From a virus: a stretch of 20,261 bases of DNA. Below, one piece after another: positions 143-18,306 of the stretch. Each line of letters starts with the position of its first letter. Within the stretch, counting starts at the first letter, position 1. The DNA lies in IMG/VR virus record IMGVR_UViG_3300044641_009294, positions 1 to 20,261 of that record; one strand, written 5' to 3'. Made by a program: the position numbers and the translations under genes. A model generated the notes under the pieces. It was not told the origin of the DNA. It worked only from the letters and a program-made list of their open reading frames with translations, and made no database searches.

Positions 143-1966
143 ATGATTGACCAACAAGTCACACGCTTGATGGACGCATACCGGGGAAATCCGGGGGCGC
201 TTGCACAGAACGCGGGCGTGCCGCCTGACCTCATCAAGCTGCTCGCCTTACAGCAGTTGAAGTCGGAGAAAGAGGCGGCGATGCGGTCGATGCAGATGGC
301 TGCAGCACCGCAGACTAATCAAATGCCGACGGTGGCGGACCAGCGCGAGCAAGAACTCCTTGACATGACGACTCAACAGGTTGCCCAGCAGGTGGGCGGA
401 GTCGCGCAGCAGAAGCAGCAGTCGGAGAAACAGAATCTTCAGAAGCTGCTTCAGTCAGGGATTGCATCAGCGCCGGGGGCCCAAGCGGCTGCGCAACCGC
501 AGATGATGGCAGCGGGTGGGATCGTAGCTTTTGCAGAGGGCGATCCGGTAGAAGACCCGGTCGTCAAACGCATGCAGGAATTGCTTCGCCGGGGGGCATC
601 GGTAGAGACCTTACGCCGAAATTTTAGGAATCTTTCTGTTCCGGAGTTTCGCGCTGCGTTGGAGGCTGCACAGAAAGCGCCGGTGTCGCCTATCTCAGAC
701 TCAGCACCGCCCGCTCCACGCGCCGCGCGTCCAATGTTTAGCACCACAGGGATCCCTGAAAGTTCTGCGATTGCCGAGCCGCGTTCACCCCTGCCCGACT
801 ATGAAGGCGCTGTGGCGGCAGCGGGGCTTTCTACCACGCCGCCCAGTTCTGCTACCCCTGCTGAGCCCGCCGCTCCGGCGGCCCCTGCGTTCCCAATCCC
901 GACCTCGCCGGGCGGAATGAGCCCGGAATTGCGCAAAGCGCTTGAGCAGACCGTCACGAGCGGATTGACCCCGCAGGCCAACCAACTGCAGATAGATGCA
1001 GAGACTCAAGCTCGTCGCCTTGCTGCGACCGACCCGATGGCGGTAGCGGAGCAGTTCCGTGCGGAGTTTCCGCAGCCCACGAAGGCCGAACTTGATCAGC
1101 AGCAGGCACGCCTTGCGCGGCGCCGTGCCATGCTTGAGGAACAGTACAACCCGAAGCAGCAGGGTATTGAACAGCTTCTCCGGATGGGGGCTGCGTTCTC
1201 GCGTGGATTGACCCCGGGCATGGCTGCCGGTCCGTCGGCAGAGGTTGGCTTGAACTACATGGCGCAGCAGCGTGCAGCGCGCGCTAAGGCTGAGGATGCG
1301 ATCCTTACTGAGGAAGAAAGGCAGATGGAGAGCGCGCTGACCGGGCGCCGCGAAGCTTCCAAAGCTGGCGTGAAAGGCTACGAAGTAGGAATGCCCGGGC
1401 AGATTGCTGGCAGCCGAGGGCTGGCTGACTTGGCTAACGCTCGACGTCTTGGAGACGCAAGCGCTCTCGAAGCGGCGTCACGGATGCTGGGCACCGAGTC
1501 GGCGGTGGCCGCGAACCGGTACGGCAGTGAGCTTCAAGCAGCAGTAAGCGCCGCGAACAACGCGGCCACAGTAGCTGAGCGTGAACTTGCGCGAGGGCCT
1601 ACAGAAACTTCTAACCTGCTGGGGCATCAGGCGCGGCTTACCGCTGCGATTGCGGAGACTGAGCGGAAGTTCCGTGAGGATAAAGATAAATACCTCACTA
1701 CGCCGGGCGCTGGCCTGCGGATTGCGAACGCGCTACGAGATCCTACCAAACCGGAAAACCGTAGGATCGTAGACGACTATAAACGTCAGGTTGACCAAGA
1801 ACTTGCGGCGCTCACTGGGCCCGCTAAAGCGCTGCTAGCGCAAGTTAACACTGCGCTTAACCGCACGATCCCCGGTGGGGGCGCAACCCCGGGCGCCGTC
1901 GACCCCGCTGCGCGGGCCCGCCAAGAGTTGGAGCGCCGCCTTAGGCAAGCCGCTGGAGGTCAATAA
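143..1966 (+). CDS. Putative helical virion/internal protein, 607 aa
   Basis: Starts at ATG 143 with a GGG-containing purine stretch about 8 nt upstream. No catalytic motif is visible. The protein is rich in Ala, Gln, Glu and Arg. The N-terminal 110 residues are Gln-rich helix. Residues about 121-134 carry MMAAGGIVAFAEGD, a glycine-rich motif I recall from structural proteins of marine-type phages (memory, not a search). Residues about 190-255 are a Pro/Ala-rich linker, and about 265-600 are long amphipathic helices likely to form coiled coils. It ends in an Ala/Arg-rich tail. Its stop overlaps the start of the giant gene (TAATG). Position directly before a giant polyvalent protein suggests a late virion component, for example an internal or ejection protein; a tape-measure or scaffold role is not excluded. 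The function is inferred from context only. Confidence 0.8.
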   Translation: MIDQQVTRLMDAYRGNPGALAQNAGVPPDLIKLLALQQLKSEKEAAMRSMQMAAAPQTNQMPTVADQREQELLDMTTQQVAQQVGGVAQQKQQSEKQNLQKLLQSGIASAPGAQAAAQPQMMAAGGIVAFAEGDPVEDPVVKRMQELLRRGASVETLRRNFRNLSVPEFRAALEAAQKAPVSPISDSAPPAPRAARPMFSTTGIPESSAIAEPRSPLPDYEGAVAAAGLSTTPPSSATPAEPAAPAAPAFPIPTSPGGMSPELRKALEQTVTSGLTPQANQLQIDAETQARRLAATDPMAVAEQFRAEFPQPTKAELDQQQARLARRRAMLEEQYNPKQQGIEQLLRMGAAFSRGLTPGMAAGPSAEVGLNYMAQQRAARAKAEDAILTEEERQMESALTGRREASKAGVKGYEVGMPGQIAGSRGLADLANARRLGDASALEAASRMLGTESAVAANRYGSELQAAVSAANNAATVAERELARGPTETSNLLGHQARLTAAIAETERKFREDKDKYLTTPGAGLRIANALRDPTKPENRRIVDDYKRQVDQELAALTGPAKALLAQVNTALNRTIPGGGATPGAVDPAARARQELERRLRQAAGGQ

Positions 1967-4900
1967 TGGCTGATCGTTTCTCCCTGCTGTCGACGGAAGA
2001 CCTGCAGGCACTTGCAGCCAATGACTGGTCACGTGTATCAACCCGTGGCCTGCAGATCCTAGCAGGAGAACGAGAACCTGAGCCCACTGCCCCCGTTAAG
2101 ACTCCTGCCAGCACAGAGCGTACGTGGGGAGAAGTACCCCGCGATGTAGGCGCGCAAGCGCTATCTGGACTCGGTGCTCTCATTAAGTTTCCCGGGCAGC
2201 TCTACGGGCTGGCTACGGGCGATTTCCGCCCAATTGGTAATCTTGGCTTAGGCCAGCGCGCACAACGAGGCGCGGAACAAATGAAGTCTCCCGGCCTGCG
2301 GGCTCGAGAGGAGCAGCTCTCTGAACGTATTCAGGAAGCCGAGCAGCGCGGGCAGGGCGCCGCGTTCATGGAAGCGCTCAAAGGAACGGTTACTGATCCA
2401 GCCCTGTTGGGCGGTGCGGTTGTAGAGTCTATCCCTGCAATGCTTCCGGCGCTTGGTCTCGGCGCAGCGGTTGCGCGTACCACAACACAGCGAGCCCTTG
2501 CCAAGGGGGCTGAAGCTGCCGCAGCGCGTGCAGCGGGGGCCACTGCCGGCGTAGGAACCGCAAAGGGTGTCGGGGCGGTCCAGCAAGGTGCGGAGGTCGG
2601 TGCCGAGTCGTACAAGCAGCTCTTCGATGAGTTCCGCCGGCAGGGGCTCGATGAGCCGGAGGCCGCCAAGCGCACACTAAACGCAGCCCGGGCAGCTGGT
2701 GCCTCGGGGGCCATCATCTCGTATCTTGCTCAGAGCCTGCCCGGCGCGTCTGCGCTTGAAGAAGCAATCATCACCGGCCAGCGTCGTGTGCTGGGTCGGG
2801 TCGGTGCCGGTATCGCAGGTGGCCTCAAAGAAGCGCCCAGTGAAGCGATTGAAGAGGGTGGTGGGCGTGCCACGCAGAACGTGGCGTTGCGGGAGGCTAT
2901 CCCCGATCAACCCATCTCTGCCGGTGTGGGCGAAGCTGCTGGTCGTGCTGCCGCTGCGGGCCTTGGTCTTGGTGCTGGAGTCGGTGCCATTCAGCGTGGG
3001 CCGGCGCGCCCTGCGCCGCAAGTTACTCCTCCGCCACCCCCACCCCCTGCGCAACCAACAGGCGGCCCCACCCTCGAGCCCAGCGCGCCTGCGGGTACGC
3101 AAGGCGAACTGTTCACCGAGGCTGAAGCGCCCCGTGCTCCGACGCCTGAGGGGCTTGCACAGAACAAGGCGTACTACGACGCGCTAAACAACCAGCTCAC
3201 GCAACTGACGCGCGAGCAAGAGACGCTCCGTGCTCAGGCCAGCCAGACCTCTGATCCTGCGGCGCAGGAACAGCTTCGCCAGCAATCCGTAGCTGTGACC
3301 GAGCAGATTGCGAATGTCTCAGGCGAGATGGCCCGCTACGCGCCGACGATTCCGTCGATCGCACAAGAACCCCGGATTGATACCGAGGCACGTGCAGAAG
3401 AGGCTGAGCGCACTGCAGACCTGCAAGCCAAGCGCCAAGAGTTTGACACGCTGCAGCGTGAGAATGAACGCCTCAAAGCGGAGTATGAACGTGCATCGGC
3501 CTTAGAAGATCGTGTGCAACGAGTGCGGGAGACGATGAGGATTCGCGCCGAAGCCGAACGTCTCGCGCCCTCGCTTGCTGCGCTGCAAGAGGATATTCAG
3601 CGGGACCGACGCGCTTTGCCGACGCAGGCTACACAGCGTGCTCCCACTGCCGAAGGTCAGCTCGATCTTCGATTTGGTGATGAGATCCGACTGGAGGATC
3701 TCACTGCGTCCGGCATTCCTGTAGAAGGCGGCAGCAATCAGCAACGCGCTGTGCGTAGCTGGTTCCGAGACAATGTCATCGGCAAGACGCCGAATGACCT
3801 CCGTGCTATGGTAGCGAAAGACCCCAGCCTTACTGAAGGTACGGGGCTGAGAGCGCGAGCGATCCAGCAGATTCTTGCGCCAGAGCCGACGCCGCCCGCA
3901 TTTGAGGAGAAGCCCCGTGCACCCGTCTCCGTTCCACAAACCAATGTACCTGCAGCTCCCGTCCAACCAGAACTTGACTTTGGAGGAACTGGGGCAGGCG
4001 TGGAAGTTTCTGGACGAGCTGCACAACCAGCCGTTCCTGCCGGCGCTCCCGCCCAACCTCAAGCGGCTCAGCCCGGAGGACTGGGAGGCCGTGGGGTACC
4101 TGCTGCACCGCGAACTGGAGAACCGGCGGCACCATCGGGTCAACTAGACCTCGACTTCACAGCGACTGCGTCGGACGCAGACCGCCGCCGGCGCGCGTTT
4201 GAGGATTGGCTTGGCGGAGTCGCTAAGCGTGGGGCGCAAGAAGCCGCTGCGCAAGACATTCTTGACGATATGGACGAGCAAAACGTCTCTCCAAAAGATG
4301 AAGCTCGTAAGTTTTGGAAAGAGACCTACTTCAAGCTGCCGGCTGAGGCCCAACAGCGGTTCCAGCGGATGCTCAAAGCACAGACCGGTATGGAGCCGGG
4401 CAGTGCCATTACGTCCGATCGCCGCGCGGCAGATTGGTTTGAGATCGCGGACGACTACATCGAGAGTGAGCTGCCGGATTCTGCCGCTGACCTAGAGGGT
4501 ACTTCTCGAGGTTTTGTTGCGCTTATGGCGGAAGGCAATAAGCGGACACGGGATGTGGAAGCCCCCGCCGCTGCTCCCGCTACCGCTACTGCGCTACCAG
4601 CCCCCGCTGCGCCCAACCAAGAAGCCGCCAAAGCCGCGAAGAAAGCCGAAGCTGCTGCAAAGCGTAAAGCCGCAGCCGAAGCCAAGCGTGCAGAGGCTGA
4701 AGCGCGCAAAGCGGAAGCCGATGCTCGCAAAGCCGAGGAAGAGGCCCGGCAGGCTGAAGCGGCTGCAAAGCAAGCTGAGGAAGAAGCCAAGCAGCGCGAA
4801 GAGGAAGAGCGCACCCGCAGAGTCGCGGAGACCGCACGTAAAGGTCAACTCAAACAGGCCGGTGCCAAATGGCGCGAGTACGCGGACCCGGATACGCAGC

Positions 4901-7900
4901 CCAAATGGGCTGATCTGTCTGACGAGCAAAAGGAACGCTGGCGCGAAGCGATTGAAGCGGGCAAGCCGACGATCGCGCTTGCCGAGGAGATTGCACCGCC
5001 CCAAGTTGAGCCCGTTGCGGCAGCGCCTGATGTACCCCTGCCTGAGTGGGCCAAAGCAGATTTGCGCAAACGTGGCGCTACTTTTGTCTCATTCGATGGT
5101 AAAAACCTTATTTACCGTACTTTTGGTGATCGCGGCAGTGATTTTTTCTCACTTGCGTCAAAAGACGTAACAGTAAACTTCTACGATGTAAACACCATCG
5201 ATAAGCAGTCATTCAGGTTCTTTTCAAAGGCGGAAGTACAAGCTGCGGCTCAAGCGGTCGCTCGGTTCCAAAATGAAGACGCTCTCCAATCAAAGGCTTA
5301 CCCCGAGGGTCCGTTTACCGGAGCAAAGCAGGGTGTCGTCGGTGACTCAGACGTCGATCCGAAGTACGTTGCGTACCTGCAAGAACTAATTAACAAACTC
5401 AACATAAACCTACCGGGTGGACAGCCTCTGCGGATTTTCCTGCGGGGCAAGACGTTGAGTGATGACGCTCGAACCGAATCCAAACTCTATGGGGCTTATC
5501 GGCACGCATCGTACCCGCTGGAGGGGTATGGGCATACCATTAAAGTCGGCCCGCTCCGGCGGGACTTTGTGATCGCCGTAGATTTTGACACCGCACCCGA
5601 AGCCGCGTTATCAACGCTCGGCCATGAATTCGGTCACGTCATTGAAATGACCATGCTTGCGTCGGCGCCCGTTGAGGTGCAAAACGCTATCAGGGCGGAA
5701 TACGACAAATGGTTAGCCGCAAGACCTCGTGATGAAAGCGCGCTCGATTTCTTCAAGTCCCGCAGCTCGCCATTTTTTGTAAAAACTACGCAAGAAGAAG
5801 CTAAATCTAAAGGGATGGATTTAGCGGCAGCGCGGGCAGCAAACCTGTCTTCCTACTGGCGCCAGTTTAATGAATGGTTTGCAGACCAAGTCTCGCGTTG
5901 GGCCACCACCGAAGACAAACCCCTATCGGTAGTCGAGAAGTTCTTTGCGTCGGTTGCCGCCAAGATGCGCAAGCTCGTGGCGCTGGTTGACAAGCGAGAG
6001 TCGGCCCCGGCGGCGTCGGTCAAGAAGTTCCTTGACGAGATGTACGCGCGGCGCGGTGCTGGCCTGCAAGCAATTCAGTCGTGGCATGCCCTGCCCACGT
6101 CGGGCACACCGAAAGCGCAACCGCTCCTTGCTATTGATTCCCCCGTTGAGGTTGACGAGCTCCGCTCGCTCAGTAGCCTAATGAACCCCAACGGCGGCAC
6201 AAGCCTTGGCATGGGCCAGTCGGCAACGGACTTCGTCACGAAGTTTCGTACGCGCATCGCAGACAAGGGCGCCACTGCCTTTGAGGCAATCTCCAAGGGC
6301 TTCAACGGTGCCGTGCGCAACGCGCTGGGACAGGCCAGCCTAGAGCCTCTGTACCGCCAAGCTGAAGCGTCCGATCAGCTGATCCCTGCATACCTGCGCT
6401 TGGGGTCGCTTGCCAAAGATAAAGCCACGGGCCTCTGGCGTGCTGTGGCGAAGCCCAACCTGCGCCCGCCGGCAGATGTGCTGAGCGTCATTGAGACGTG
6501 GGCCAAGTCGCAGAACATGTCGTTCCAAAAGGCGTACGACGAAGCGGGCAAGATCATGGAGTCCGCGCGGCAGAAAGAGTTCAAGGACCTCAACGCTTCG
6601 ATGGCTAAGGGTCGGCAGTTCCCCGTATCGATGTCGGATGCCGATATCAACAAGTACTACGGGATCTACTCGTCTGACCCAACGTTCCACCGCACCCTGC
6701 GGAAGATCCTTGACGATGCGCGCTTCGATTTGATCGACAACATGGTGAAGGTAGGGCGCATCCCGCAAGAGATGGCCGACGATTGGAAGACTGCCACTGC
6801 GTACATTCCGTTCGATCGTGAAGGTGTGGCGGGCCTTGAACAGTATTTCCGGTCGCAGCGTAAATTGGGGCGCGGCATCGCACAAATGGGCAAAGCCAAT
6901 CCCCAGCTTGTAGACGCCCCGCTGATTGACCGCCAAGTCAAGAACTCACTTGACAACTACTTCAACTGGATGGGGTGGGGTGTGCGTCAGGTTGTGCAAG
7001 CCGATGCCACCATCCGTACACTGCGCGCGCTAGAGAAGGTCGGGCAAGCTCGGTTCCTGCCGGGCGGTGCCGCACAGGTCAACTCCAACAACAAGCCACG
7101 GGTAGTGCAGGCATACGTCAAAGGCGACGAGGTCTACTTCGAAACGCCCTCTGCGTATCACGCTGCTGCGTTTAATATCCAGATCGCACCCTTGCCGGCG
7201 CTATTTGAGGTAATGGGTAAGTTCTCGCAAGTGCTGCGCACAGCCATCACGGCGGTGCCGACCTTTACGGCAACGCAGGTCCCACAGGATATTCAGCGTG
7301 CGATCATGTACTCGGGCGTCAAAGACGCCGCAATGCTGACTGCACGGACGCTTACGAACTTCACGGAGTACTCAAAGTCTGCGCTGCTGGGCAAGCTGCC
7401 ACAGATCACGCACGAGCTTGGTGAGTATGGCGTCGCAGGCGACTTCGACTTCCGTATGGATGAGGCTGCTGACTCGTTCCTGCGGAGCATGGGCGTCAAA
7501 CCCCGCCGAGGTGGAGTGGTTGGTGAGTTCGTGCACCGCATGAGCGACATTGCTCGGGCCTCTGACTTCGCGCTGCGCCGTGCGATCTACGAGCAGACTC
7601 TCTACGAAGGCGGCGATCAGCTACTGGCGCTTCATCGGGCGCGGGAGATCATCAACTTCCGTCGGTACGGCATGGGCGACCAGCTCGGCATCGTGCACAT
7701 GCTGACGCAGGTGATTCCCTTCTATGGCGCGTACATCCAAGGTATGGATGTGCAGTATCGCAGTCTCACTGGTAAGGACGCCCCCTCTGGACTGGAGCGC
7801 TCTGCAGCGCTCAAGCAGTTCTATACGGTAGCTGCCTACGCTACATCGGTGGCGGTGCTCTACTCGCTCGCAAAAGCCGGCGACGAAGAATACGAGAACA

Positions 7901-8769
7901 TGGACCTGCGTGAGCGGGACAAGACGTGGGTAATCGGCGACGGCTTTGGCATCCCCGTGCCGGGCGAACTGGGGGTGATCTTCAAAGCGCTGCCCGAGCG
8001 CGTGCTGGAAGCCATGCGCAAGCAAGGCACACCGGACGAAGCTGTTGCTGCCGAGGCTGTCATCTCGTGGTTCAAGGCAGCGTTTGATGAGTACTCTGGG
8101 CGCGGCTACATGCCGGCGTCCTTCAAGCCGCTCCTCGAGAACATAACCAACTACTCGTTCCTCAGCGGTCGGGCGCTTGAGGGTACCTACCAAGCTGGAC
8201 TGCTACCCAGCGAACGTACGACGTCTCGCACCTCTGAGTTGTCGAAGAACATCGCGCGCTTCACTGCGGATACGACCGGCTTTCAAGTCTCACCAATCAA
8301 GATTGACAACTTCCTGCAAGGGTATCTTGGCACGACGGCAGGGCTTCTGTTCGCAACAACGGACGCTATGCTGAACCCGGATCGGATTGACCGCCCCCTG
8401 CATCAACTGGTGGGGCTGACTGCGTTCACGTATGACCCGGTGGGAACGCGCCGCGCAGGCGAGTTCTACGATCTTCGCGAGAAGGTTGTGCAGACACAGA
8501 ACACGCTGAACCAGATGATGAAAGAGGATCTTGGTCGCGCTGCGGATTTTGCTGAGAAGAACGCCGACAAGCTCATGCTCTACAAGGCTGTCAACAGCAC
8601 GCTCAAAGAGATCGAGCGGACCCGTGCCTATCGCAACTGGCTGAGTAGCGCTGACGCTGCGCAATCCTTGACCCAGAAAGAACGGGCGCAGCAGATGGAA
8701 GAGATCAAGCGCTACGAGCAGCAGATGTTCGAGTGGACCCGGGACGTGCGCAACTACTTAAAGCTCTAA
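1966..8769 (+). CDS. Giant polyvalent virion-type protein with zincin metallopeptidase motif, 2267 aa
   Basis: Starts at ATG 1966 in a TAATG overlap with the previous gene; GGAGG lies 6 nt upstream. Visible layout: residues 1-345 Gly/Ala-rich helices with hydrophobic stretches (about 147-170 and 320-342); a poly-proline linker near 355-361; coiled coils about 395-450 and 470-548; four short QLDLxF/QGELF-like peptides between 379 and 731; an Ala/Lys/Glu-rich TolA-like coiled coil about 885-960; a metallopeptidase-like domain with HEFGH (H1220, E1221, H1224) and a possible third ligand in NEWFAD (E1303); then about 850 residues of C-terminal region, including a hydrophobic helix near 1952-1972 and an IPVPGELG...ALPER segment. 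This architecture fits the large polyvalent proteins of phages and mobile elements, which are thought to enter the host with the DNA. Roles as internal core, peptidoglycan or host-protein protease, or anti-defence factor are all possible; none is shown here. Confidence 0.85.
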   Translation: MADRFSLLSTEDLQALAANDWSRVSTRGLQILAGEREPEPTAPVKTPASTERTWGEVPRDVGAQALSGLGALIKFPGQLYGLATGDFRPIGNLGLGQRAQRGAEQMKSPGLRAREEQLSERIQEAEQRGQGAAFMEALKGTVTDPALLGGAVVESIPAMLPALGLGAAVARTTTQRALAKGAEAAAARAAGATAGVGTAKGVGAVQQGAEVGAESYKQLFDEFRRQGLDEPEAAKRTLNAARAAGASGAIISYLAQSLPGASALEEAIITGQRRVLGRVGAGIAGGLKEAPSEAIEEGGGRATQNVALREAIPDQPISAGVGEAAGRAAAAGLGLGAGVGAIQRGPARPAPQVTPPPPPPPAQPTGGPTLEPSAPAGTQGELFTEAEAPRAPTPEGLAQNKAYYDALNNQLTQLTREQETLRAQASQTSDPAAQEQLRQQSVAVTEQIANVSGEMARYAPTIPSIAQEPRIDTEARAEEAERTADLQAKRQEFDTLQRENERLKAEYERASALEDRVQRVRETMRIRAEAERLAPSLAALQEDIQRDRRALPTQATQRAPTAEGQLDLRFGDEIRLEDLTASGIPVEGGSNQQRAVRSWFRDNVIGKTPNDLRAMVAKDPSLTEGTGLRARAIQQILAPEPTPPAFEEKPRAPVSVPQTNVPAAPVQPELDFGGTGAGVEVSGRAAQPAVPAGAPAQPQAAQPGGLGGRGVPAAPRTGEPAAPSGQLDLDFTATASDADRRRRAFEDWLGGVAKRGAQEAAAQDILDDMDEQNVSPKDEARKFWKETYFKLPAEAQQRFQRMLKAQTGMEPGSAITSDRRAADWFEIADDYIESELPDSAADLEGTSRGFVALMAEGNKRTRDVEAPAAAPATATALPAPAAPNQEAAKAAKKAEAAAKRKAAAEAKRAEAEARKAEADARKAEEEARQAEAAAKQAEEEAKQREEEERTRRVAETARKGQLKQAGAKWREYADPDTQPKWADLSDEQKERWREAIEAGKPTIALAEEIAPPQVEPVAAAPDVPLPEWAKADLRKRGATFVSFDGKNLIYRTFGDRGSDFFSLASKDVTVNFYDVNTIDKQSFRFFSKAEVQAAAQAVARFQNEDALQSKAYPEGPFTGAKQGVVGDSDVDPKYVAYLQELINKLNINLPGGQPLRIFLRGKTLSDDARTESKLYGAYRHASYPLEGYGHTIKVGPLRRDFVIAVDFDTAPEAALSTLGHEFGHVIEMTMLASAPVEVQNAIRAEYDKWLAARPRDESALDFFKSRSSPFFVKTTQEEAKSKGMDLAAARAANLSSYWRQFNEWFADQVSRWATTEDKPLSVVEKFFASVAAKMRKLVALVDKRESAPAASVKKFLDEMYARRGAGLQAIQSWHALPTSGTPKAQPLLAIDSPVEVDELRSLSSLMNPNGGTSLGMGQSATDFVTKFRTRIADKGATAFEAISKGFNGAVRNALGQASLEPLYRQAEASDQLIPAYLRLGSLAKDKATGLWRAVAKPNLRPPADVLSVIETWAKSQNMSFQKAYDEAGKIMESARQKEFKDLNASMAKGRQFPVSMSDADINKYYGIYSSDPTFHRTLRKILDDARFDLIDNMVKVGRIPQEMADDWKTATAYIPFDREGVAGLEQYFRSQRKLGRGIAQMGKANPQLVDAPLIDRQVKNSLDNYFNWMGWGVRQVVQADATIRTLRALEKVGQARFLPGGAAQVNSNNKPRVVQAYVKGDEVYFETPSAYHAAAFNIQIAPLPALFEVMGKFSQVLRTAITAVPTFTATQVPQDIQRAIMYSGVKDAAMLTARTLTNFTEYSKSALLGKLPQITHELGEYGVAGDFDFRMDEAADSFLRSMGVKPRRGGVVGEFVHRMSDIARASDFALRRAIYEQTLYEGGDQLLALHRAREIINFRRYGMGDQLGIVHMLTQVIPFYGAYIQGMDVQYRSLTGKDAPSGLERSAALKQFYTVAAYATSVAVLYSLAKAGDEEYENMDLRERDKTWVIGDGFGIPVPGELGVIFKALPERVLEAMRKQGTPDEAVAAEAVISWFKAAFDEYSGRGYMPASFKPLLENITNYSFLSGRALEGTYQAGLLPSERTTSRTSELSKNIARFTADTTGFQVSPIKIDNFLQGYLGTTAGLLFATTDAMLNPDRIDRPLHQLVGLTAFTYDPVGTRRAGEFYDLREKVVQTQNTLNQMMKEDLGRAADFAEKNADKLMLYKAVNSTLKEIERTRAYRNWLSSADAAQSLTQKERAQQMEEIKRYEQQMFEWTRDVRNYLKL

Positions 8770-13068: not shown

Positions 13069-13458
13069 TTACTTGCTGGCCCGACGGACCGTGATGGCAT
13101 AACGAGCGTCCGCGTTCAAACCCTCAGGCAGGGTGCCCGGGTTCTCTTGCAAGAACTGCTTCATATTGCCTTGGTGCACTCGCTGCTCCAGAAGCTGGAC
13201 AGCGTCGTGTTCTTTGATGAAGCGGTACATGGAGTCCCAATCATTGGTCCAGTATCGCGTCTTGACGCTGCGGCTGAACGTGCCGTACGTCGTGCGTCCG
13301 CCGTCTTGCCCGGTCAACTTGCAGATTTCGAGCAGAGCTTGCTCGATCAGCTCCATCTGCTCCTTGATCTCGTTGACCTTGGCATCGTACTCACGCGTGA
13401 TGGCGTCTTTTGCGTCGCGCATCTTGATGTATGCAGCGACAAGTTTGTCAGCATCCAC
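13069..13458 (-). CDS. Conserved-type replication-region protein of unknown function, 129 aa
   Basis: Starts at GTG 13456-13458 with a perfect AAGGAG (13471-13466) 7 nt upstream; the ATG at 13452-13454 is out of frame. The first 45 residues form a charged helix or coiled coil (AITREYDAKVNEIKEQMELI). The second half holds an aromatic segment (RYWTNDWDSMYRFIKEHDAV) and a basic end (YAITVRRASK). The layout, an N-terminal coiled coil then a compact domain ending in a VRR strand, is loosely like Gam-type nuclease inhibitors, but I see no diagnostic match. It is the first gene after a near-consensus promoter and lies 17 nt before the probable SSB gene, so it is likely made early and at a high level with it. 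A role as SSB partner or exonuclease inhibitor is possible. Confidence 0.75.
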   Translation of the reverse strand: MDADKLVAAYIKMRDAKDAITREYDAKVNEIKEQMELIEQALLEICKLTGQDGGRTTYGTFSRSVKTRYWTNDWDSMYRFIKEHDAVQLLEQRVHQGNMKQFLQENPGTLPEGLNADARYAITVRRASK

Positions 13459-13490
13459 GGGACAGCTCCTTCTTTTGTATTGGACTTAGA

Positions 13491-13518
13491 ATTATACAGG
13501 GGCGAATAACTATGTCAA
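13491..13518 (-). promoter_or_regulatory. Near-consensus sigma70 promoter upstream of the 129-aa gene and probable SSB
   Basis: On the - strand, TTGACA (13518-13513), a 16-nt spacer, TATAAT (13496-13491). Both hexamers are perfect; the spacer is 1 nt short of optimum. The predicted transcript start is near 13484, giving a leader of about 26 nt that contains the AAGGAG ribosome site (13471-13466) of the 129-aa gene. The -35 hexamer includes the TGA stop of the SNF2 gene (13517-13515). It should serve the 129-aa gene, the probable SSB, the HTH gene and perhaps the primase-helicase, and relies on host RNA polymerase. Confidence 0.88.
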
Positions 13519-15065
13519 GCGATCTCCTGTTCGTAGAGTTCGACGAGGCCCTGATGGAGGTCCACTTTTCCATCGAGCAGGTTGTAGATCCGCTTCTCCA
13601 CGGGGCTGCCTTGGATGCGCACCACGGTGACGGGGTTGCGCTGGCCTGCACGGTGCGCCCGGGCGTTGCCCTGCATGTAGAGTTCAGCCGAGGCGATGGG
13701 CCCCCACCAGACGATGGTGTCGGCTTTGGTGAGCGTGATGCCGTGTGCGGCAGCTTGCGGGATCAGCATAATGACTCGCGGGTCATCTTCCGTTTGAAAG
13801 CGCTTGATGTTCTGGGCGCGATGTGAAGCGGGGGTACCCCCGTGGATGGTGGCAACCGAGATGCCCTCCTTGATCAGCTCCTGCTCCACGCGCTCAAGCG
13901 CATGCTTGAACGGCACGAAGACGATCACTTTGTTGGGTGTAGCCCGGATGACATCGAGCAGCTCATCCATGCGGTTGCGCATGTCGAACTCAACAACTTC
14001 CCGATCCTCGGTGTACGCCACGCCTTGGCTGATCTGCAGGAGCTTGTTGATCATGCCCGCTGCGTTGACCGCTGTGATGCGCTCGCCAGCCGCCGTCGCC
14101 ACCATCGATTTGCGAATCTTCTCGTAGTACTTCTCCTGCTGCGCGGTCAGCGGTACCTCTCGAGTTGTGTACAGCATGTCTGGGAGATCTAAACACTCCG
14201 CCTTGGAGAACCGGATGGCAGGCTGCAGGACGCTGTGCACGATCTCGGAGGCGTTGGCTCGAGGGATCCATTTGAACTGCGTGGCCTTGTACATCACACG
14301 GTCGCGGAACGCACCGAAGAACTTGGGTACCCCCGCCGGGTTCACGAGCTTGGCAAGTCCGTAGGCATCCACAGGCGACTGCGCCGCAGGTGTACCCGTC
14401 ATCATCCACAGGCGTGTGTGCGCAGTGATCAGCCCTGCAAGCGCGCGCCACCGGTCCGTCGTCACCGACTTCACAGCGTTGGCTTCGTCAGCAATGATCA
14501 GATCGAACCCGCCGTTGGCAAGGGCTTCGCGAACCACCTTCACGCCGTCGTAGTTGATGATGACAAACTCGTAGCCCCCGGCGATCACCGCTTCGCGCTT
14601 GGCTCGAGGCCCCACTGCAAGCGCCGCCGTGCGGTGCATCACCGTCTTGAAGAGGTCAGACAGCCACGCCGTCTCCATGATGGACACTGGGCATACGATC
14701 AGAACGCGCTTGATAACGCCGATCGTCATTAGGTAGTCCGCCGCCCATGCGGCAGCTCCCGTCTTGCCTGTGCCCGGGTCTGACAGAACGAACGCTCGAG
14801 GATGCGAGGTCAGAAAGGCTGCGGTGGTGCGCTGGTGCTCGAACGGGCTGAAGATGCCCGGCCACTTGTACTTTCCAAGAATGGGGCTCGGCACGTCCTT
14901 GATGCGCAAGTTGCGCAGGATCCGCGCCTCGTCGTAACCCCAGTTGACCAGCACCCTGCCAAGATCTCCCTGCCGCTCGAGGAGCTTGCTCTTGGGGATG
15001 AGCCTGACGATCTGATCAGCCTTGCGTGTGGTCAGCAGCAGGGCCTTGTTTTCGATGATTTGCAT
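13515..15065 (-). CDS. SNF2-family (SF2) DNA helicase/translocase, 516 aa
   Basis: An ATP-driven DNA translocase. Counting from ATG 15065: motif I SDPGTGKTG (K101), motif II DEAN (193-196, where DEAH is usual), motif III TGTP (223-226), IHGG near 408, and motifs V/VI ending QGNARAHRAGQ (465-475), the RxHRxGQ signature of SNF2 proteins. Both RecA-like lobes are present, and the length is close to a minimal SNF2 core without accessory domains. The frame is open to a TTG at 15113, but that would put the palindrome at 15088-15110 inside the gene and start 1 nt after the terminator U-tract, so ATG 15065 is preferred; its ribosome site is weak (GGGTG). It lies between the HNH and 129-aa genes. SNF2 helicases are common in phage replication modules, and the exact role (fork remodelling, annealing) is unknown. 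Confidence 0.93.
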   Translation of the reverse strand: MQIIENKALLLTTRKADQIVRLIPKSKLLERQGDLGRVLVNWGYDEARILRNLRIKDVPSPILGKYKWPGIFSPFEHQRTTAAFLTSHPRAFVLSDPGTGKTGAAAWAADYLMTIGVIKRVLIVCPVSIMETAWLSDLFKTVMHRTAALAVGPRAKREAVIAGGYEFVIINYDGVKVVREALANGGFDLIIADEANAVKSVTTDRWRALAGLITAHTRLWMMTGTPAAQSPVDAYGLAKLVNPAGVPKFFGAFRDRVMYKATQFKWIPRANASEIVHSVLQPAIRFSKAECLDLPDMLYTTREVPLTAQQEKYYEKIRKSMVATAAGERITAVNAAGMINKLLQISQGVAYTEDREVVEFDMRNRMDELLDVIRATPNKVIVFVPFKHALERVEQELIKEGISVATIHGGTPASHRAQNIKRFQTEDDPRVIMLIPQAAAHGITLTKADTIVWWGPIASAELYMQGNARAHRAGQRNPVTVVRIQGSPVEKRIYNLLDGKVDLHQGLVELYEQEIA

Positions 15066-15087
15066 GTGCACCCATGAAGCAAAATCG

Positions 15088-15110
15088 CCAAGGTACGGTC
15101 CGTACCTCGG
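15088..15110. promoter_or_regulatory. Operator-like palindrome upstream of SNF2 gene
   Basis: The core aggtacgg-t-ccgtacct (15091-15107) is a perfect 8-bp inverted repeat around one central base. The symmetry extends to 11-bp arms with one mismatch (15088-15110). It lies 23 nt upstream of the chosen SNF2 start and directly after the terminator U-tract. The symmetry and size fit a dimeric regulator site, for example for the HTH protein encoded at 11926-12183, or an RNA hairpin that hides the SNF2 ribosome site. I noticed no second full copy of this palindrome in the window. Confidence 0.5.
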
Positions 15111-15111
15111 C

Positions 15112-15140
15112 AAAAAAGGCGCGGGGAGGGGACCCCGCGC
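15112..15140 (-). terminator. Strong intrinsic terminator between HNH and SNF2 genes
   Basis: On the - strand, GCGCGGGG (15140-15133), loop TCCCCT, CCCCGCGC (15126-15119), then C and TTTTTT (15117-15112). This is an 8-bp all-GC stem with a 6-nt loop and six Us, a textbook Rho-independent terminator. It would end the polymerase-nuclease-HNH transcript and also any RNA starting at the promoter 15186-15213. Confidence 0.85.
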
Positions 15141-15179
15141 TAAACCACTTCTGAAGGAGCCCCCGTAACCAACGTGGGC
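15112..15179 (-). ncRNA. Candidate short RNA or attenuated leader (about 68 nt)
   Basis: The stretch lies between the predicted start of the 15186-15213 promoter and the U-tract of the intrinsic terminator. It contains part of an imperfect stem-loop (about 15152-15182, partly removed by the assumed start site) and the 8-bp terminator stem. No open frame with a plausible ribosome site was found in it. It may be an independent phage small RNA or the attenuated 5' leader of the SNF2 mRNA. It is supported only by promoter and terminator matches. Confidence 0.35.
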
Positions 15180-15185
15180 CTCCCC

Positions 15186-15213
15186 ATCATACCGAAACAG
15201 GTTACTGCGTCAA
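15186..15213 (-). promoter_or_regulatory. Sigma70-type promoter after the HNH gene
   Basis: On the - strand, TTGACG (15213-15208), a 16-nt spacer, TATGAT (15191-15186); each hexamer has one mismatch to consensus. The -35 contains the TGA stop of the HNH gene (15212-15210), the same arrangement as the promoter at 13491-13518. The predicted start is near 15179, about 40 nt before the terminator stem, so the primary product could be a short RNA of roughly 68 nt unless read-through occurs into the SNF2 gene. Confidence 0.7.
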
Positions 15214-15467
15214 GCCTTCTTCATTGCGCCTGACGACGTTCTTGCAAAGCTGCGATTGGCAGACTTGGGCTTGACCCGCAGGTTCGACGCACCCGTGCTG
15301 CCGCCCTTGCTGAGCGGCTTCTTGTGGTCGACGTCCATGCCGTCGCCCTTCTTCACGCGCCCAGCCTTGGTCATCTCCCGACGTGCCTTGTTCCGCATGG
15401 CTCGGTTGTGGATCTGCTCAGGCGTACCTTGGTAGTTCTCGTATTCAGATTTGTAGTTGCGCGGCAT
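15210..15467 (-). CDS. Small HNH endonuclease-like protein, 85 aa
   Basis: The motif MDVDHKKPLSKGG (D47, H48) followed by SNLRV (N62) and SANRSF (N71) is the core of a compact HNH nuclease, with His48 as likely general base and Asn/His-type metal ligands. The N-terminal 40 residues are a basic helix (HNRAMRNKARREMTKAG) suited to DNA binding. The ATG at 15465-15467 has AGGTGA just upstream and begins 3 nt after the stop of the PD-(D/E)XK nuclease gene. Its size and composition match a family of small HNH proteins seen widely in phage genomes. The partner and substrate are unknown: it could act in replication or packaging or be a degenerate homing nuclease. No CxxC zinc motifs are present. Confidence 0.85.
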   Translation of the reverse strand: MPRNYKSEYENYQGTPEQIHNRAMRNKARREMTKAGRVKKGDGMDVDHKKPLSKGGSTGASNLRVKPKSANRSFARTSSGAMKKA

Positions 15468-17962: not shown

Positions 17963-18306
17963 GTATTTTTCTCCTTCAGTTTTTCTTCGATAGCCTCAAG
18001 AGTTGAGGCGCTAATCCAATAAAACTCGTTCACTTCCTCATCCGTCAGCCCGACCCATTCTCGCGGTGCGGTGTAAAGCGGCAACGCGCGCTGCGGCTCG
18101 GCGAAGTCTGTCGGGTTATCTGTAACACACACTGACTTACCGTCAAGCCCATAGACCATCCACGCCACCGGCTCTTGCTTCTCAGCCTGCTCGATGGCAG
18201 CGCGGAGAGCGGCGATGGCGGCGTCAAGGTGCGGCACCGGGCCGTCCTGCCACTCGCGCTCAATGCCCAACGCTTCCAGCGCCTGCTTCATAACTGCGAT
18301 GCTCAT
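17959..18306 (-). CDS. Small phage protein with MSIxxMKQALE N-terminus, 115 aa
   Basis: Begins MSIAVMKQALEALG, then LRAAIEQAEKQEPVAWMV, a PLYTAP segment and REWVGLTDEEVNEF. I associate this mosaic (MKQALE, AIEQAE, EPVAWM, PLYTAP, WVGLTDEE) with a very common class of uncharacterised small proteins in proteobacterial phages. The ATG at 18304-18306 overlaps the TGA of the upstream gene (ATGA) with GGAGAG just before it; its own stop overlaps the polymerase start. The N-terminal 45 residues are helical; the rest appears to be a small mixed domain. The function is unknown. Direct coupling to the polymerase suggests a replication-associated or merely co-transcribed role. It is related at its N-terminus to the next gene upstream (18303-18596). 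Confidence 0.88.
   Translation of the reverse strand: MSIAVMKQALEALGIEREWQDGPVPHLDAAIAALRAAIEQAEKQEPVAWMVYGLDGKSVCVTDNPTDFAEPQRALPLYTAPREWVGLTDEEVNEFYWISASTLEAIEEKLKEKNT
18275..18306. repeat. Direct repeat copy A at the start of the 115-aa gene
   Basis: A 32-nt segment covering the start codon and first ten codons of the 115-aa gene, 28 of 32 bases identical to 18565-18596. It reflects a shared gene start (MSIxxMKQALE), probably from duplication or module exchange. Confidence 0.8.

Follow-up and report, generated by a model that had tools for sequence, protein, structure and literature searches.

A putative family of small base-pairing RNAs encoded in the replication operon of uncultured environmental phages

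The spacer between an HNH-type gene and an SNF2 helicase gene of an environmental phage looks like the gene for a roughly 70-nucleotide phage RNA that is conserved in about 90 related phage sequences. Our best reading, drawn from sequence comparison, is that it belongs to a new family of base-pairing small RNAs encoded by phages, which would repress a neighbouring gene and probably early genes too. Conserved boundaries of the RNA, a covarying terminator, a linker enriched in anti-Shine-Dalgarno motifs and a coevolution with the target that is specific in position and gene were established by computation, and we consider it likely that the region encodes a small trans-acting RNA which blocks translation of its target by base pairing.

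The window, i.e. the whole stretch of DNA analysed, is an IMG/VR virus record of 20.3 kb. Its minus strand carries around the spacer the genes for DNA polymerase A, a PD-(D/E)XK exonuclease, the HNH-type protein, the SNF2 helicase and a DUF7307-like protein, and a primase/helicase-like protein is encoded farther along the same series. At 1966-8769 lies the gene for a 2267-residue protein whose residues 100-542 weakly match the PHROG "virion RNA polymerase" (E 2.7e-10). The features considered below are the following.

15210 to 15467, minus strand: HNH-type small gene, upstream neighbour (phrog_4590; HNH-like by motif, no Pfam match; synteny conserved)
15208 to 15213, minus strand: -35 element TTGACG, overlapping the TGA stop of the HNH-type gene
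15186 to 15191, minus strand: -10 element TATGAT, 16-nt spacer to the -35; predicted transcription start near 15179
15112 to 15179, minus strand: predicted small RNA, about 68 nt
15159 to 15179, minus strand: 5' hairpin of the small RNA in the predicted fold, GCCC-CGU / ACG-GGGC
15153 to 15160, minus strand: putative anti-Shine-Dalgarno seed GCUCCUUC, complementary to GAAGGAGC at 13472-13465
15112 to 15140, minus strand: intrinsic terminator, eight G-C pairs and U6 (GCGCGGGG-TCCCCT-CCCCGCGC at 15140-15119, then C and six T to 15112)
15085 to 15113, minus strand: second hairpin, TTGCCGAGGTACGGACCGTACCTTGGCGA and TTTT (UUUU after the stem in the RNA)
13515 to 15065, minus strand: SNF2-type helicase gene, the neighbour on the downstream side, which seems not to be a target
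13491 to 13518, minus strand: promoter of the target gene, TTGACA-N16-TATAAT, (T)GACAGTGTATAAT-like in relatives
13465 to 13472, minus strand: predicted pairing site GAAGGAGC over the Shine-Dalgarno sequence of 13069-13458
13069 to 13458, minus strand: predicted main target gene, directly after SNF2 (phrog_13900; similar to DUF7307 / Pam3 gp33-like)
17971 to 17979, minus strand: possible additional pairing site CUGAAGGAG at the start of polA, seen in this window but without significance over the family as a whole

Promoter, terminator and second hairpin in the window

The promoter TTGACG-N16-TATGAT (15213-15186, 10 of 12 matches) and the 8-bp all-GC terminator with six Us, both reported in a preliminary description of this DNA, are present on the minus strand, the terminator having the highest G-C pair count among the window's terminator-like sites. 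The promoter hexamers alone occur at chance frequency: counted over the 20-kb window and in shuffles, promoter-like sites number 5 against 5.9 and terminator-like sites 16 against 17.5, and the case must therefore rest on relatives. The leader nevertheless folds better than its own shuffles (z -4.45).

The perfect 8-bp palindrome described just after the terminator is indeed found there, but its size was understated, since it forms as RNA a stem of 13 pairs including one G-U. The suggestion that it is a regulator site is unlikely, as most relatives lack it and no palindromic sequence conserved among them, as a protein-binding operator would require, was found. In the four loci where it recurs (L088, L003, L255 and L256) the stem sequence is changed and the pairing largely kept; this second hairpin therefore behaves as an RNA hairpin or a backup terminator, and is probably a backup terminator or 5' untranslated hairpin confined to the lineage of the window and a few relatives. 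The probable start of the SNF2 reading frame is the ATG at 15065, from which most relatives align, and the hairpin would thus lie within the SNF2 5' untranslated region. The SNF2 gene shows neither a clear Shine-Dalgarno sequence nor a promoter-like site after the terminator, so that its expression must use read-through or another route.

Conservation of the small RNA among related phages

Four protein scans, three of them with SNF2 and one with the HNH-type protein, yielded nearly 290 loci, among which the HNH-SNF2 synteny is common and the spacers sort into three groups. Group 1, which includes the window, consists of related IMG/VR phages with at least 62% SNF2 identity and provides 93 distinct HNH-to-SNF2 spacers; group 2 spacers hold a different, longer structured RNA, and group 3 has practically no spacer. 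None of the cultured phages whose helicases are related (Rhizobium RHph_TM3_14A, Pseudomonas Rollin, Acinetobacter HHU4 and Effie, Xanthomonas Xp15) has an HNH-spacer-SNF2 arrangement like this one, and a near-identity search of the phage collection with the window returned no match. Matches in the genome collection were confined to contigs of metagenome-assembled genomes, probably binned phage contigs, and therefore gave no host.

Group 1 spacers share one order of elements: immediately past the HNH stop comes a -10-like element, followed as a rule by a 5' hairpin, then by the linker, the terminator and a poorly conserved stretch up to SNF2. A covariance model, R1, built from 11 distant group 1 members, none of them from the window's clade, matched the two strands of the window only once, at 15191-15111, from the -10 element to the U tract (18.2 bits, E 0.016), and full-length matches of this type in the large contigs tested numbered at most one per contig. 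Covariation was evaluated on 52 distinct sequences aligned with MAFFT on sequence alone. In the terminator helix 100% of cells are paired, 7 of 9 pairs are changed on both sides, and sliding the partner destroys the helix, while the helix matching the 5' hairpin is paired in 73.5% of cells, with double changes at 6/6 pairs. Of the two elements whose conservation was in question, the terminator stem is thus kept in relatives with compensatory changes, whereas the palindrome is missing in most of them. The predicted RNA ends, like base-pairing small RNAs, in a Rho-independent terminator with a U tail, and the initial proposal of a small RNA of about 68 nt is supported by 5' and 3' boundaries, terminator helix and anti-Shine-Dalgarno linker, all conserved in about 90 relatives. 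A scan with Rfam models retrieved no family at gathering level in this stretch.

The 5' boundary also bears on how the RNA would be made. A TANNNT element stands two bases past the HNH stop in 79 of the 93 relatives, and the window clade combines -35 and -10 elements, whereas most relatives have the -10-like box and no recognisable -35; the promoter may therefore depend on an activator, or the RNA may arise by cleavage of the operon mRNA. The latter would make it a 3' UTR-derived small RNA without its own promoter, released when an endonuclease cleaves the mRNA of the polymerase operon immediately past the HNH stop. Such a position right after a stop codon is typical for these RNAs, and the element following the HNH stop, (G)AUUU, would suit an RNase E-like site as well. 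However, the letters conserved are precisely T1, A2 and T6 of a -10 box, AUUU is absent there in the window, and TTGAC occurs at the right spacing in the window clade, L002, L003, L255 and L256; in all it is found at the HNH stop in 15 spacers, several of sister groups included. We consider this origin a fair alternative, but the less likely one.

Coevolution of the linker with the neighbouring gene and early genes

The motif UCUCCU precedes the terminator in 68/93 spacers against 2.6 in dinucleotide shuffles, and CUCCUCC or CUCCUU in 61/93 against 3.4, these sequences being related and the counts thus not independent events. Relatives carry UUUCUCCUU or UCUCCUCCC where the window has GCUCCUUC. 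We compared the RNA-to-gene complementarity of matched pairs with that of swapped pairs, by gene and by position. The 13069-13458 orthologue gave a matched mean of 6.54 against 5.85 ± 0.12 for swapped pairs (P<0.0002, n=84), and the excess was kept with one member per cluster at 95, 90, 85 or 80% SNF2 identity (15-44 clusters, median P <1/300). It is restricted along the target gene to window centres -20 and 0 (z 4.6 and 5.0), i.e. the ribosome-binding site and start codon, with no excess at centres -120 to -40 and +20 to +100; within the RNA, the excess comes from the 30 nt preceding the terminator (z 6.0). No matched-pair excess was found for the control genes SNF2, HNH, exonuclease, polA, primase and g12167 (P 0.25-0.99). 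Such a pattern, at one place of one gene, is not what common ancestry or composition would be expected to give. The seed region thus coevolves with the translation initiation region of a transcript that is presumably separate, since the target gene has its own promoter.

The strength of the match varies among phages. The longest contiguous complementarity at the target start ranks in the top 5% of locus windows in 25 of 84 phages and is the best of all in 12 of 84, examples being AACAGGAGAAAACA (14 nt, L234), AACAGGAGAAACA (13, L186) and ACAAAGGAGAA (11, L003); members without CUCC pair over the target start codon (L238, L241 and L250, with ACAACCAUGA, AACCAUGA and AACCAUGAG). The window clade has a match of only 8 nt, GAAGGAGC, and its seed is only about half unpaired (0.46) in the predicted fold. 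Over half of the RNA-target pairs, notably in the CUCCUCCC lineage, have no unusual match to the 13069 orthologue. When duplex energies were scanned along each locus, the target did not stand out, since purine-rich start sites are outweighed by GC-rich coding DNA.

The promoter (T)GACAGTGTATAAT before the DUF7307-like gene is very conserved in group 1, where a -35 at the usual distance is often missing. Between this promoter and the gene, L189, L013, L224, L151, L195 and others share a recurring, apparently structured leader, GGGGGAAAGC...GCGGACGAGCGGUUAGUACCCCC / GGGGAAAGCGGAUGCUG...CAGCGAGUACCC, which had no Rfam match in the 12 group 1 loci scanned.

Larger contigs extend into genes that we call early from their position and type, a region short of which the window ends. 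The small RNA matches early-gene starts there with seeds differing by phage (GGAGAAACC in G001, AACCAUGAA in G003, ACCACAAAGGA in G005). Swap tests on 12 gene families, with P values uncorrected for that number, are suggestive of further targets: a VARSS-type gene (301-residue protein, no Pfam family; P 0.005, n=13) and an AAA ATPase gene (P 0.015, n=9), and, less strongly, a DUF2201 VWA-metallopeptidase gene (P 0.07, n=11). The polA gene looked like a target in the window, but its family-wide swap test was negative. Over whole contigs, seeds numbered 67 for own, 40 for swapped and 17 for shuffled RNAs; for G004, G012, G018 and G019 the locus of the RNA itself, read in antisense, contributes to the own count, so the orthologue swap test was relied on instead.

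These counts also bear on a more general role, in which an anti-Shine-Dalgarno RNA would act mainly on host mRNAs. UCUCCU and UCUCCUCCC are complementary to Shine-Dalgarno sequences in general, the 16S rRNA 3' end carrying CCUCCUU; RNAs of other phages match many start sites, as the 40 against 17 for shuffled RNAs indicates, and the CUCCUCCC lineage has no preference for the 13069 orthologue. Against this, the complementarity excess is limited to certain phage genes, and to start codons even without CUCC, which makes a mainly host-directed action improbable.

The other initial proposal, a conditionally attenuated leader of SNF2 governed by antitermination or leader-peptide control, is very unlikely. 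Promoter and terminator do precede SNF2, and the spacer offers no other SNF2 promoter, so that read-through would be needed if the upstream operon stops here. However, the terminator helix dominates the ensemble of 92/93 members (mean pair probability 0.98, below 0.8 in 1/93), neither a competing antiterminator structure nor a leader peptide conserved among relatives was found, and sister phages keep SNF2 but have no spacer. The claim that the element controls the helicase start is likewise unsupported, complementarity between the RNA and the SNF2 start being no better in matched than in swapped pairs (P 0.97). An operon terminator beside a chance promoter-like match would fit the shuffle-level scans of the window, but is disfavoured, and the least probable reading of all, given the swap, dereplicated-cluster and position results together with the conserved 5' boundary and linker motif.

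Proposed mechanism and related RNAs

For the trans-acting RNA that we favour, RNA polymerase would start near 15179 and stop at the intrinsic terminator near 15112, and the linker exposed between 5' hairpin and terminator would pair with the Shine-Dalgarno sequence or start codon of 13069-13458 and, in phages with longer contigs, probably also with the AAA ATPase and 301-residue protein genes. Pairing would block ribosome loading and lower target translation once the replication operon is active. The exposed segment stays complementary to the target ribosome-binding site as both change, and therefore probably turns off target translation; silencing by occlusion of this site is the simplest reading, by analogy with NfeR1 (PMC10746234). 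We infer transcription of the RNA, repression rather than activation, the use of Hfq and the timing. The location of the RNA gene in the replication operon, together with early genes among the candidate targets, makes an early-to-middle switch possible. More tentatively, a widespread clade of environmental phages could use one replication-operon small RNA to silence a set of early genes and the neighbouring gene, with lineage seeds coevolving with the regulon and sister phages carrying an unrelated structured RNA in the same place.

Rhizobiales possess anti-Shine-Dalgarno small RNAs of the alpha-r14 / NfeR1 or "cuckoo" type (PMC10746234, PMC3927594), of which NfeR1 pairs with mRNAs at their translation initiation region and so silences them (PMC10746234). 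They resemble the phage RNA in their anti-Shine-Dalgarno motif (CCUCCUCCC) in unpaired regions, but are chromosomal, with three or more hairpins each bearing the motif. Here a phage gene encodes a 5' hairpin, usually a single linker motif, UCUCCU(UU/CCC), and a terminator, in place of at least three hairpins with CCUCCUCCC in the loop, and the seed drifts with the target. Phage regulatory RNAs include PreS (lambda), VpdS (VP882), c4 (P1/P7), sar (P22) and OOP (review PMC12197685), among which c4 and sar block phage-gene translation near the ribosome-binding site, while PreS and VpdS work together with Hfq. No link to these five was seen in sequence or synteny, and the present family differs from them in its environmental phages, its replication operon and its predicted coevolving trans targets. 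The Burkholderia RNAs ncS54 and ncS025 (Rfam RF02871 and RF02869) have a similar size and hairpin-plus-terminator layout, and their models match the same place weakly; membership was rejected, the scores being far under the gathering thresholds (18.6 against 43 and 17.9 against 46 bits, respectively). Within a partial coverage of papers, no description of this small RNA family was found.

Most of what is known about RNA control in phages concerns temperate phages, lambda-like ones among them. That uncultured environmental phages have a conserved family of predicted small RNAs, whose target could be predicted solely by coevolution, suggests that this form of control is common elsewhere too, and the comparison of matched and swapped complementarity by gene and position is reusable for other phage spacers.

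Sister phages carry in the HNH-SNF2 spacer another structured RNA of about 150-240 nt (L028, L027, L031, L037, L029, L100, L041, L065, L062, L283, L289, L054, L077, L023 and L148), in which the hairpin loop GGUAUGAGUG pairs with a downstream CAUAUC/CGCACC element. Except for L027, L041, L283 and L289, the spacers of these loci were compared with Rfam and had no match at gathering score. The pseudoknot is paired in 98.9% of cells, with two pairs changed on both sides. Among all the loci scanned with Rfam, the one match above gathering score is an int-alpA RNA at L023:11355-11423.
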